DNA from: Nitrospirota bacterium
GTDB taxonomy: Bacteria > Nitrospirota > Thermodesulfovibrionia > SZUA-242
Reading direction: 5' to 3'
Length of the DNA stretch: 49,286 bases
Assembly (NCBI GenBank): GCA_027021335.1
Contig: JALUUO010000029.1
Coordinates: 1 to 49,286 of the forward strand
Made by a program: the position numbers and the translations under genes. Every line of letters begins with the position of its first letter. Position 1 is the stretch's first letter. The notes under the pieces are model-generated. The model was given only the letters and a program-made list of their open reading frames with translations. It was not told the origin of the DNA and made no database searches. This document shows, piece by piece, positions 24 to 39,093 of this stretch.

Positions 24-62
24 AAAAAAATCCCCGGACCTAAATCACATTAGGTCCGGGGA
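24..62 (-). terminator. Intrinsic terminator downstream of the minus-strand B12 riboswitch
   Basis: Read on the minus strand, a perfect 13-bp stem (arms 50-62 and 31-43, loop 44-49) is followed by seven U residues (the A run at 24-30). It lies about 80 nt past the 3' end of the minus-strand cobalamin riboswitch, the position expected for an expression platform that stops transcription when B12 is bound. The controlled gene lies beyond the left edge. Confidence 0.88.
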
Positions 63-134
63 TGCCGTTTTTCATCCTCGGTTATAACCTCTACATACAG
101 TTCCCCTGCTCCACGAGAGGAACGGCTATGCTCT

Positions 135-325
135 GTTTTCGTATTAGGTCTTCCGGCTTCCGGATCAGTCTACTTACCGCGCCTTCCCATCTTTTTCATC
201 TTTTTTAGACAGTGGCTTTACTGCGGCTTTCGTTCCCGGTTACGGCGGCGGGTCCGCGACGGAATTTCACCGTACTTCCCTTTAGGCCCTGACGGGCCGT
301 CCACGATTATTCTCGTAGTAATTTA
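135..325 (-). promoter_or_regulatory. Cobalamin (B12) riboswitch, minus strand
   Basis: Read on the minus strand this shows the ordered cobalamin-riboswitch landmarks: a GGTGAAATTCCGTCGCGGA-type segment, CCGCCGTAACCGGGAACG, GCCACTGT, GGGAAGGCGCGG, and the B12 box AGCCGGAAGACCTAA (near 143-160). The outer boundaries are approximate. It precedes the terminator at 24-62, so it probably controls a B12 uptake, synthesis or B12-independent isozyme gene to the left of the window. That gene cannot be seen. Confidence 0.9.
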
Positions 326-349
326 ATTTAACACAACAGTGTTTCTCAA
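321..349 (-). promoter_or_regulatory. Candidate promoter for the minus-strand B12 riboswitch
   Basis: On the minus strand TTGAGA (344-349) and TTAAAT (321-326) are separated by 17 nt. The predicted start of transcription, near 314, falls just before the 5' end of the riboswitch. Each hexamer is only a partial match, so support comes mainly from position. Confidence 0.5.
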
Positions 350-395
350 TGAAATAGAGAAAGAAATAGATAAAGCTTTCCTTTATTAAAAATTG

Positions 396-424
396 TTGCA
401 AAAAACAAAAGTGTCTGCTAATGT
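396..424 (+). promoter_or_regulatory. Candidate promoter for the nrdDG riboswitch leader
   Basis: TTGCAA (396-401), a 17-nt spacer and TAATGT (419-424), preceded by TGC as in an extended -10. Transcription would start near 431, about ten bases before P1 of the plus-strand riboswitch. It is back to back with the minus-strand promoter at 321-349. Confidence 0.55.
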
Positions 425-441
425 ACATTTACAATTTGACC

Positions 442-600
442 ATATGGCTGGATGCCAGGGAAGAGGGGTGAAATCCCCCCGCTGCCCCGCAGCCGTGAAG
501 GGAACGAAAACCCGTAAAAACCACTGTCATTGGATAACACCATGATGGGAAGGTGGGTGAGTAGGCAGCCCTAAGCCGGAAGACCTATCCAGACCGTATA
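442..600 (+). promoter_or_regulatory. Cobalamin (B12) riboswitch upstream of nrdD
   Basis: The sequence carries GGGGTGAAATCCCCCC, GCTGCCCCGCAGCCGTGAAG, GGGAACG, CCACTGTCA, GATGGGAAGGTGGG and the B12 box AGCCGGAAGACCTATCC. CTGGAT near 449 pairs with ATCCAG near 587 to close P1. No terminator follows; a hairpin over the nrdD ribosome-binding site at 718-757 suggests translational control. B12 riboswitches before B12-independent ribonucleotide reductases are established: the switch is expected to turn the gene down when cobalamin allows a B12-dependent NrdJ to work. Confidence 0.93.
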
Positions 601-645
601 AAAATTCGCTAAAACTAATATCTTTTCGCGCGGGAGGAAAAGAGT

Positions 646-792
646 ATGGTATCTACACGTCTGCTTTATTATGCAGAATCACATGCAGTATCAACTTTAA
701 CTGTTACTGTCTTACCAATTTTCTCCTCCTTGCCTGAACTGTTAAGGAGGAGAAAATGTTTAAGGAAATACGGAAACGAGACAGCAAAGTAG
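646..792 (+). CDS. Possible 48-residue leader ORF overlapping the nrdD start
   Basis: An ATG at 646 sits behind a strong ribosome-binding site (GGGAGGAAAAG, 632-642) and opens a 48-codon frame that runs through the hairpin at 718-757 and stops at TAG 790-792, 37 bp inside nrdD in another frame. The product (begins MVSTRLLYYAESHAV) resembles nothing I recognise. If translated, ribosomes would melt the hairpin that covers the nrdD start, coupling nrdD to the leader. The length is not unlikely by chance, so the case rests on the ribosome-binding site and the placement. Confidence 0.35.
   Translation: MVSTRLLYYAESHAVSTLTVTVLPIFSSLPELLRRRKCLRKYGNETAK
718..757 (+). promoter_or_regulatory. Hairpin sequestering the nrdD ribosome-binding site
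   Basis: TTTTCTCCTCCTT (719-731) is perfectly complementary to AAGGAGGAGAAAA (744-756), with A718-T757 extending the stem to 14 bp around a 12-nt loop. The 3' arm contains the whole Shine-Dalgarno and the first bases of the nrdD ATG (756-758). With no U run after it, this is a translation-blocking stem, not a terminator. Confidence 0.8.
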
Positions 793-2849
793 TAAGGTTC
801 GATGCAGAGAAGATTACAAGTGCGATTGCAAAGTCCGGCTCTGCAACCGGAGAGTTTAATGGCGACGTTGCCGGGCGGCTGACGCTCAGGGCGCTGAATC
901 TGGCAGCTCAGGTTATAGGCGATAGAATTCCCGCTGTTGAGGAGATTCAGGACATTGTAGAAGAGGTCCTGCTGTCTTCAGTCTACCGCAGAACCGCCAA
1001 GGCATATATACTCTACAGGGAGCAGCATGCCAGAATCAGGCAGATTACCACAAAATCGGATATTGATCTTGTAGATCATTACCTGAAGCAAATTGATTGG
1101 AAGGTCAATGAAAACAGCAATATGGCCTTCTCTCTTCAGGGACTGAACAACTACATTTCTTCAGAGATCAGTAAGATATACTGGCTGAACAAGATATACC
1201 CTCCTGAGATCAGAAAATCTCATATTGACGGTGATTTTCATATTCATGATCTAAGCATACTTTCTGTTTATTGCGTCGGGTGGGATCTTCATGATCTTCT
1301 TAGTCATGGATTTAAGGGTGCCCCAGGCAAGATAGAGAGTAGTCCCGCAAAGCACTTCCGGAGTGCTCTGGGCCAGGTGGTTAACTTCTTTTACACCCTT
1401 CAGGGAGAGGCGGCCGGCGCGCAGGCATTTTCTAACTTTGACACACTTCTCAGCCCGTTTATAAGATACGATGGCCTTAGTTTCAAAGAGGTGAAGCAGG
1501 CTCTTCAGGAGTTTGTTTTCAATATAAACGTTCCTACAAGAGTTGGTTTTCAGACCCCTTTTACAAACATTACTCTTGATCTTACGGTTTCGAAAAATTT
1601 CGCAGACCAGCCTGTTATTGCAGGCGGCAGGCTGCGGGATGAAACCTACGGGGAGTTCCAAAAAGAGATGGACCTCTTTAATAGAGCCTTTTTAGAGGTG
1701 ATGTTTGAAGGCGATGCAAAGGGCAGAGTCTTTACCTTTCCCATACCCACCTACAATATTACGAAAGATTTCGACTGGGACAATCCCAATATCGACATCC
1801 TGTGGAAGGTGACCGCCAGGTACGGTATTGCCTATTTCTCAAACTTTATCAACTCTGACATGAAGCCGGAAGATGCCCGTTCAATGTGTTGCAGGCTGAG
1901 GCTTGACAACCGTGAGCTTCAAAAAAGAGGGGGCGGGCTCTTTGGTGCAAATCCACTGACCGGTTCGATTGGTGTGGTCACAATCAATATGCCGAGGCTT
2001 GCTTATGCAGCTAGAGATGAAGGTGAGTTTATTACTCTTCTGGAGAAGTTGATGGTTATGTCCAAAGAGAGTCTTGAAATCAAGAGAAAAGTTCTGGAGA
2101 AGTTTACAGAGGGCGATCTCTATCCATACTCAAAATACTACCTTAGAAGTGTTAAAGAACGTTTTGATAAGTACTGGAAAAACCACTTTTCGACCATAGG
2201 TCTTATTGGAATGAACGAAGCGTGTTTGAACCTATTAGACAGGGAAATTGCGTCTCCTGAAGGGCATGCCTTTACTCTCAGGGTAATGGATTTCATGCGA
2301 GGTAAAATGTTGGAATTTCAGGAAGAAACAGGCAATAACTACAACCTTGAGGCAACGCCGGCAGAAGGAACCTCATACCGGCTGGCAAGGATTGATAAGG
2401 AAAGCTTTCCGGGTATTATCTGCGCCAACGAAGTTCAGTACCGAACACTTAATGCAGAACCGTTTTATACAAATTCCACTCAGTTACCTGTGGATTTTAC
2501 GAATGATATGTTTGAGGTGCTTGAACACCAGGATATGATACAGGAGAGATATACCGGTGGAACAGTACTGCATCTCTTTGTAGGTGAGAAGATAGAAGAT
2601 ACCGGATCCCTTAAAAAACTGATAAAAACAGTCTGTGAACAATATCATCTCCCATACTTTACTGTTACTCCTACGTTCAGCGTATGCCCTGTAGACGGAT
2701 ACATTGCCGGAGAGTTTGCAGAGTGCCCAAGCTGTCATGAGGAAACAGAAATTTATTCCCGCATAGTGGGGTATCTTCGTCCTGTGAGACAGTGGAACAA
2801 AGGAAAAAAGGAGGAGTTCAGTACCAGAAAGGAGTTTGAGCTGGTATGA
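756..2849 (+). CDS. nrdD: Anaerobic (class III) ribonucleoside-triphosphate reductase
   Basis: Reduces ribonucleoside triphosphates to deoxyribonucleotides without oxygen, using a glycyl radical. The 697 residues show an N-terminal ATP-cone (about 3-93, allosteric), the catalytic barrel with adjacent cysteines at about 378-379 in MCCRLRLD, and a C-terminal metal site (C644, C657, C660). The glycyl-radical motif RIVGYL has the radical glycine at about 672. The first half of the metal site reads CPVDGY rather than the common CPxHGY or CxxC. Start ATG 756 follows a strong AAGGAGGAG. The stop overlaps the nrdG start by four bases (ATGA), so the pair is translationally coupled. Expression should be controlled by the upstream cobalamin riboswitch and hairpin. 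Confidence 0.96.
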   Translation: MFKEIRKRDSKVVRFDAEKITSAIAKSGSATGEFNGDVAGRLTLRALNLAAQVIGDRIPAVEEIQDIVEEVLLSSVYRRTAKAYILYREQHARIRQITTKSDIDLVDHYLKQIDWKVNENSNMAFSLQGLNNYISSEISKIYWLNKIYPPEIRKSHIDGDFHIHDLSILSVYCVGWDLHDLLSHGFKGAPGKIESSPAKHFRSALGQVVNFFYTLQGEAAGAQAFSNFDTLLSPFIRYDGLSFKEVKQALQEFVFNINVPTRVGFQTPFTNITLDLTVSKNFADQPVIAGGRLRDETYGEFQKEMDLFNRAFLEVMFEGDAKGRVFTFPIPTYNITKDFDWDNPNIDILWKVTARYGIAYFSNFINSDMKPEDARSMCCRLRLDNRELQKRGGGLFGANPLTGSIGVVTINMPRLAYAARDEGEFITLLEKLMVMSKESLEIKRKVLEKFTEGDLYPYSKYYLRSVKERFDKYWKNHFSTIGLIGMNEACLNLLDREIASPEGHAFTLRVMDFMRGKMLEFQEETGNNYNLEATPAEGTSYRLARIDKESFPGIICANEVQYRTLNAEPFYTNSTQLPVDFTNDMFEVLEHQDMIQERYTGGTVLHLFVGEKIEDTGSLKKLIKTVCEQYHLPYFTVTPTFSVCPVDGYIAGEFAECPSCHEETEIYSRIVGYLRPVRQWNKGKKEEFSTRKEFELV

Positions 2850-3565
2850 CGATAGGAGGTTTTCATAAATTTTCCTTAATAGATTATCCCGAAAAAATCA
2901 GTGCTGTTATTTTCACCCGGGGATGTAACTTCAGATGTGCTTATTGCCATAACCATGCCTTGATCCATCCGCGCTTACTTGAGAGTCAAGTGCATGAAGA
3001 AGATGTTCTATCGTTTCTAAATAGCAGAAAGGGCTTGCTTGACGGTGTAGTTGTGAGTGGTGGCGAGCCACTGCTTCAGGTTGATATCGAGGTTTTTATC
3101 AAAGAGGTGAGGTTAATGGGCTATAAGGTAAAACTGGATACAAACGGCTCTGAGCCAGAGAGGCTTACCGGCTTATTGAAGGAAGGTTTAATTGACTACG
3201 TTGCAATGGACTACAAGGCCCCGCTTAAAACTTACAAAAGGGGTGCGGGAGTTGACGTTGATACAGCCCGGATCAAAAAATCCCTGAATATGATCACGGA
3301 ATCTGATATTCCTTATGAGGTAAGAACGACCATGTTCAGTGGTCTTGGGGTGGACTGCATTTTTGATATGATGAGTGAGTTAAGTTCCATGAATGTAAAG
3401 AGTTATTTTCTACAGTTTTTTAAACCCTTTCCGGGATGTACTGAAGATCTCTCTGTTGAATATAAAAATATTGAGCGCTTAAATAAGGAGCTTAAGAGCC
3501 GTTTCAAAAGGTATGGTATCAGAAACATTAAATTAGAAGGAGATATATTTACTATGCTATGCTGA
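2846..3565 (+). CDS. nrdG: Anaerobic ribonucleotide reductase activating protein (radical SAM)
   Basis: Radical-SAM enzyme expected to generate the glycyl radical on NrdD by reductive cleavage of S-adenosylmethionine. In its 239 residues the cluster motif is C27-x3-C31-x2-C34, followed by a VVSGGEPLLQ segment (SAM binding). The opening GGFHKFSLIDYPEKISAV is typical of the longer NrdG form found in many anaerobes, larger than the roughly 155-residue E. coli NrdG. It overlaps nrdD by four bases and is the last recognisable gene of this operon. Confidence 0.93.
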   Translation: MTIGGFHKFSLIDYPEKISAVIFTRGCNFRCAYCHNHALIHPRLLESQVHEEDVLSFLNSRKGLLDGVVVSGGEPLLQVDIEVFIKEVRLMGYKVKLDTNGSEPERLTGLLKEGLIDYVAMDYKAPLKTYKRGAGVDVDTARIKKSLNMITESDIPYEVRTTMFSGLGVDCIFDMMSELSSMNVKSYFLQFFKPFPGCTEDLSVEYKNIERLNKELKSRFKRYGIRNIKLEGDIFTMLC

Positions 3566-38421: not shown

Positions 38422-38763
38422 CTACAGACCGGTCGGCATTAAAGACGGATATTTTCTCGCGGCAAGAAGGGTGCAATTTCTCCCATGAAAAAAAGCAGGC
38501 ATAAGCCTGATTTCCCATTTCCGCTGCTTCAACCATGGGTTACAGCAGAACAAGAAGTTCAATAAATCAGATCTATTCACAACGTCCTTCTTTGAGAAAA
38601 GAACCTTAACAATTGGCGCGGCCGGTTTCCGAATGCTCCACATCAACATAAAAAACATCCGAAAAAAACCCGCCTTGCCGTGTAAATAAGAATTTGGATC
38701 CCAATCTGCAGGATCAATGGTCACCTCAAAAGGAGGTTTAGGCTTTCTCCAACGTGGAGCCAT
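38422..38763 (-). CDS. Unrecognised 113-residue protein
   Basis: Starts MAPRWRKPKPPFEV after AAAGGAGGG with six bases between, an excellent signal, and a strong promoter lies upstream. Residues 35-60 are hydrophobic and Met/Phe-rich (FFRMFFMLMWSIRKP), possibly one membrane segment. The rest is basic with scattered cysteines and no motif I recognise. The tail may be out of frame relative to an ancestral gene. Role unknown. Confidence 0.5.
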   Translation of the reverse strand: MAPRWRKPKPPFEVTIDPADWDPNSYLHGKAGFFRMFFMLMWSIRKPAAPIVKVLFSKKDVVNRSDLLNFLFCCNPWLKQRKWEIRLMPAFFHGRNCTLLAARKYPSLMPTGL

Positions 38764-38769
38764 GCACAT

Positions 38770-39093
38770 CCCTCCTTTGATATTGGTGTCCGTTTTCTTG
38801 GAGTCGGATCAACATTCCTGTTTATCACGCACAAGGCAGGCGGTTTTTATAACTTCAATATATATTATTATAAAATTTAGAATGTATGAATGCAACAAAA
38901 AAAAGCATAAGGTTGGATAAACAGATAAAAGTCGACCAAAATACATGCTGCTAATAGATCGTTTGCCCCGCGTTTGATTCAAGCATGCGGCCAAAGGCCG
39001 ATACCTGAAAAATCCAACACGGTTGTCTGTACCTGTGTTTGTATGCTATTGTTGATGAATTTGTAAAAAAATACCACTCAAAGGTGGGTTGCA
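38770..39093. other. Intergenic region between the 113-residue gene and rbfA
   Basis: No gene recognised. It contains the minus-strand promoter at 38867-38895, an A/T-rich stretch around it, and a small GGCC-AAA-GGCC palindrome near 38991. I see no clear promoter for rbfA. Confidence 0.5.
38867..38895 (-). promoter_or_regulatory. Promoter for the unrecognised 113-residue gene
   Basis: On the minus strand TTGCAT (38890-38895) and a consensus TATAAT (38867-38872) are 17 bp apart. Transcription would start near 38860, leaving a leader of about 97 nt. Confidence 0.6.

Follow-up and report, generated by a model that had tools for sequence, protein, structure and literature searches.

Divergent cobalamin riboswitches in a Nitrospirota genome and a possible relay onto nrdDG through an upstream ORF

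Cobalamin riboswitches preceding genes of the anaerobic ribonucleotide reductase have already been described, on nrdDG of Propionibacterium acnes, which also has a B12-dependent NrdJ (PMC3848588), and on nrdD of Chlorobium (PMC8620254). In both cases, as in the locus studied here, a B12 switch lies before a B12-independent anaerobic reductase, whereas neither a divergent partner switch nor an upstream ORF (uORF) is described in excerpts of these two reports. A relay from a cobalamin riboswitch through a uORF was shown by reporter fusions for Mycobacterium tuberculosis ppe2, where deleting the Shine-Dalgarno sequence (SD) or the start codon of the uORF (uPPE2) severely diminished expression (PMC11260477). 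Riboswitches of the Azotobacter plasmid pAcX50f have also been reported (PMC4465626). On this plasmid we find two RF00174 aptamers in head-to-head orientation, separated by 58 bp, with cbtBA on one side and the divergent cobW on the other; both sides are biosynthesis or cobalt genes and, unlike the locus described below, nrdD is not among them.

The DNA that we analysed, hereafter the window, comprises bases 1-49286 of contig C29 in a Nitrospirota genome bin (121 contigs, 2.7 Mb) whose closest nrdD relatives bear Nitrospirae names. Window base 1 is contig base 1, and both cobalamin leaders lie at this left end. A preliminary description made from the sequence had proposed two complete cobalamin riboswitches head to head with promoters between them. 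Searching with the RF00174 covariance model (gathering score 31.5; full length being model positions 1-189) confirmed the divergent pair: the left aptamer (133-313, minus strand) scored 81.8 bits (E = 1e-18) and the right aptamer (434-606, plus strand) 77.2 bits (E = 2e-17), both over model positions 1-189, and chance matches are ruled out as a concern for either one. The two aptamers are 120 bp apart and both promoters could be placed. On the minus strand, the sigma-70-like promoter TTGAGA-18-TAAATT (320-349) matched 9/12 in the promoter scan and predicts a transcription start near 313, the 5' end of the left aptamer. On the plus strand, TTGCAA-17-(TGC)TAATGT with an extended -10 (396-424) fell under the scan threshold, but the motif TTG(A/C)AAAAA...TGCTAnTGTA is kept immediately 5' of the nrdD aptamer in the window, G206, G356 and G299; apart from the -35 and the extended -10, the upstream sequences of these four genomes align little. 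Farther along, at 38663-38845 on the minus strand, the window also contains a 6S RNA (RF00013, 61.3 bits).

The left leader ends, as had been predicted, in an intrinsic terminator (30-63, minus strand; -27.2 kcal/mol), in which a 14-bp stem with 8 G-C pairs is followed by a U-run and which is a near-copy of the terminator in the own-genome paralogue C67a. Between aptamer and terminator, a P13-like hairpin folds at 99-124 (-11.1 kcal/mol), and a similar hairpin is found in the remaining terminator-type leaders. Its loop may kiss L5, the complementarity between the two being a weak 4-bp match only, and the 3' arm GGGGA of P13 (106-102) could pair with the 5' arm UCCCC of the terminator as an antiterminator.

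The right leader is built differently. Downstream of the aptamer, folding and the alignment of leaders identify a P13/L13 hairpin (621-643, plus strand) whose loop GCGCGGGAGG bears the SD GGGAGG at 632-637, with an AUG at 646, 8 nt further on, which is the SD-in-L13 arrangement of a translational SD-masking riboswitch. L5 (CUGCCCCGC) is complementary to GCGGG in the L13 hairpin, a complementarity conserved in six leaders, and both L5 and the L13 loop CGnGGGAGG are invariant across six nrdD leaders. The AUG at 646 opens a uORF of 48 codons (646-792, plus strand), out of frame with nrdD, that crosses the nrdD start, overlaps it by 37 nt and covers most of the 149-nt stretch from aptamer to nrdD. 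Within it, a 15-bp hairpin (718-757, plus strand; 718-732 paired with 743-757; -21.9 kcal/mol) masks both the nrdD SD (AAGGAGG, 744-750) and the nrdD AUG. The preliminary description had placed nrdD under the control of a ribosome-binding-site hairpin; such a hairpin is real, though outside positions 24-600 to which that description referred, but the SD that the riboswitch could mask (632-637) starts the uORF. The cost of opening is 15.2 kcal/mol for the nrdD SD versus 4.5 kcal/mol for the uORF SD, and forcing the nrdD SD and AUG open in the whole leader costs 18 kcal/mol. Because no strand of the aptamer stands out as a convincing competitor for pairing with this strong hairpin, direct switching of the nrdD hairpin appears less likely than a relay via translation of the uORF. 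The leader shows that an SD lying in L13 can be misannotated as that of the gene itself.

The gene behind this leader encodes a class III (anaerobic) ribonucleotide reductase (nrdD, 756-2849, plus strand; TIGR02487), with an NRDD domain (PF13597, 670 bits), an ATP-cone and the adjacent radical-SAM activase NrdG (nrdG, 2846-3565, plus strand; TIGR02495 NrdG2, 210 bits). The only other ribonucleotide reductase of the genome is the B12-dependent class II NrdJ; no further class I or II large subunit was found in the genome, and RF00174 had no match on the NrdJ contig.

Compared with ppe2, the window leader has the same overlapping out-of-frame uORF, which in both systems starts from an SD in the P13/L13 hairpin and overlaps the downstream start. 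Translation of ppe2 depended on that of its uORF (PMC11260477), and we propose the same dependence for nrdD. The two systems differ at the downstream gene, as ppe2 lacks an SD of its own (PMC11260477) whereas nrdD has a strong one locked in the 15-bp hairpin. They also differ at the junction, which is an AUGA overlap in ppe2 (PMC11260477) whereas in the window the uORF extends 37 nt beyond the nrdD start.

Our preferred reading, to which we give a probability of about one half, is that the locus holds two independent adenosylcobalamin OFF-switches, transcribed divergently from the 120-bp region, the left one acting by termination and the right one via a uORF relay onto nrdDG. On the left, B12 binding would let P13 form and free the terminator (63-30), and transcription would end before a gene located beyond the contig edge. 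On the right, binding of B12 would promote L5-L13 kissing, which would conceal the SD at 632-637 and leave the uORF (646-792) untranslated; the hairpin at 718-757 would then stay shut on the nrdD SD and AUG, and no NrdDG would be made. Without B12, ribosomes translating the uORF would pass through the hairpin and so make the nrdD start accessible. When B12, which the class II NrdJ requires, is scarce, the cell would in this way produce the class III reductase, which does not depend on it. This fits the logic known for nrdDG switches, since a B12-independent isoenzyme would be repressed when B12 is present.

Leaders of nrdD in other Nitrospirota give the relay further, if uneven, support. In five genomes (the window, G206, G356, G299 and G030), a uORF at the usual spacing after the L13 SD is open into nrdD or ends exactly at its start: stop and start codons follow each other directly in G206 (TAG-ATG), overlap as ATGA in G299, and overlap by 8 nt in G356 and G030, a stop position partly dictated by nrdD opening with ATG-TTT-AA or ATG-CTT-AA. 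The chance of the frame staying open is 0.12 for the window, 0.03 for G206, 0.02 for G356, 0.13 for G299 and 0.03 for G030, a test that is weak per genome, and the uORFs of the window, G206, G356 and G299 are related. In G027 the L13 SD is nrdD's own start signal, which indicates that, in riboswitches of this lineage, translation is what the masking of L13 affects. Conversely, G198, G025 and L113, which is more distant, have an ORF after L13 that stops well short of nrdD, and the corresponding ORFs of G342 and G005 have their start codon too near the L13 SD. The 15-bp hairpin was found only in the window among the nrdD leaders compared, and no comparable strand aligns in the remaining ones, where L13 and its SD are conserved.

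As for the peptide, the comparison of G206 with G356 gives a dN/dS of about 1.2 for the uORF but 0.05 for nrdD, which, together with no Pfam match for the uORF peptide, rules out a conserved leader peptide. In the same two genomes, the nrdD leader ORFs (L151 and L170) are about 11-13% different at every codon position, which is below the 0.37 of nrdD synonymous sites and hints that constraint on the uORF bears on RNA rather than on peptide. Since the peptide is unconstrained and G198, G025 and L113 lack an ORF running from L13 to nrdD, we regard the case for a uORF relay as moderate. Its extension to the phylum is held a little more tentatively, at somewhat less than even odds: B12 control of nrdDG in Nitrospirota would be a two-gate relay, in which the riboswitch governs the leader ORF only, a ribosome on the leader springs the hairpin lock over the true start codon, and the ORF is kept open while its peptide is free to change. 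Elsewhere, in G005 (contig C102, L136), an intact nrdD-type riboswitch (1103-1336) precedes an nrdD (1501-2004) truncated to its first 140 residues, with the next gene directly after; the switch has apparently outlived the gene that it formerly controlled.

Two other explanations of the right leader have to be considered. The riboswitch could act directly on nrdD, with the L13 strand GGGAGGAAAAG, once out of the kissing loop, pairing with the anti-SD strand UUUUCUCCUCC and thereby freeing the nrdD SD; both switches would still be OFF-switches and the uORF would be incidental. Such a duplex is predicted at -14.5 kcal/mol and could form earlier during transcription, and the lack of conservation of the uORF peptide would be expected. 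However, the local nrdD hairpin is far stronger (-22.5 kcal/mol as a duplex), the 18 kcal/mol needed to open the nrdD SD and AUG would still have to be paid, and the strand that L13 would have to capture aligns in no other leader, whereas L13 with its SD is conserved, which makes direct action rather unlikely. Alternatively, the leader could act mainly on RNA: B12 would stop translation of the uORF, and the naked leader would be terminated by Rho or decay, with uORF translation preserving the transcript. That a uORF of irrelevant peptide sequence fills most of the leader would suit this idea, but it leaves unexplained both the hairpin over the nrdD SD and AUG and the stop/start junctions of G206 and G299, and Rho was judged not to be responsible for the effect on ppe2 (PMC11260477); we consider it improbable. 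Riboswitch-to-uORF relays have been shown in M. tuberculosis (PMC11260477), and the window leader is a small natural system in which their generality can be examined. If confirmed, the relay through the uORF would place such a mechanism in another phylum and on a core enzyme.

On the left, the argument concerns the gene to be controlled. The window starts at contig base 1, and its first 23 bases have no second occurrence anywhere in the assembly, so that a gene to the left of the window is unreadable. In the paralogue C67a, a gene starts about 70 bases past the terminator U-run; with the same spacing, the left gene would sit just beyond the contig edge, and it is probably a corrinoid or cobalt gene. 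Several candidates were rejected: placement at the contig edge does not fit for ThiC/BzaB-like genes, btuB-like receptors or cbiD, metE is absent, and the cbiA cluster on C117, which does not fit the edge either, most likely continues C41, given the identical gene order in G002. The left riboswitch might be a leftover without a gene, its transcript stopping at the terminator, so that only the right switch would matter, as the contig stops 29 bases past the terminator stem and none of the cobalamin genes sought could be placed at its left edge. We find this quite improbable, because every part of the leader (aptamer, promoter, P13, terminator) is intact, a gene follows C67a, whose terminator is almost identical, and the equivalent left switch in G030 drives cbiA.

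The preliminary description had further suggested that a single B12 signal would work by two different mechanisms. A termination platform on the left and a translation platform on the right do occur, but having both side by side is not special in this genome, since, of its four other cobalamin riboswitches, three carry terminators and the one before btuB carries an SD-type platform. Nor are divergent cobalamin pairs unique, as they also exist on pAcX50f and in G030 (bacterium BMS3Bbin09). Among the 41 close genomes listed, such a pair occurs in this genome and in G030 alone. The cbiA-nrdDG pair of G030 likewise combines a terminator-type switch on the left with an SD-type switch and a uORF before nrdDG on the right, but its left gene is identified (cbiA) and its nrdD lacks the 15-bp hairpin. 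A full-text literature search, in which subscription papers were thinly covered, found no study of paired or divergent riboswitches. The novelty possibly sits in a relay variant at nrdD and not in the divergent pair.

The two switches of the window do not descend from one another by inverted duplication, which is ruled out by their 68% identity and their positions in separate parts of the aptamer tree. The right aptamer clusters with nrdD, btuF and cbiK switches of other Nitrospirota and is 88% identical to those of G206 and G356, while the nearest tree neighbour of the left aptamer is C67a of the same genome. nrdD itself is patchy, with a match, sometimes weak, in 32 of the 396 genomes of the phylum, and both of the remaining genomes in its family lack it. 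The different lineages of the aptamers and this patchy distribution suggest that a promoter-riboswitch-nrdDG unit moved in beside a resident switch. The divergent pair looks like two switches for the same ligand that evolved separately and came together by chance, and no joint mechanism is needed to account for it.

Other arrangements of nrdD and cobalamin genes were seen during these comparisons. In six loci of deltaproteobacterial bins (L070, L076, L078, L079, L081 and L083), nrdD is divergent from a TonB-receptor (btuB-like) gene with a cobalamin riboswitch, and no switch is detectable on nrdD. At L040 (G014, contig C10, 3651-11681), nrdDG lies within a cobalt-uptake/cobalamin cluster in the order cbiM ... 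nrdD nrdG cbiQ cbiO cbiD. Finally, at L116 (G000, contig C67) and L001/L002, two terminator-type cobalamin riboswitches lie on the same strand about 0.9 kb apart, one before a small CbtB-like membrane protein and another membrane protein, the other before an OprB-like porin, a beta-propeller protein and an RND metal-efflux-like pump, and this region is possibly a B12-regulated cobalt traffic cluster.
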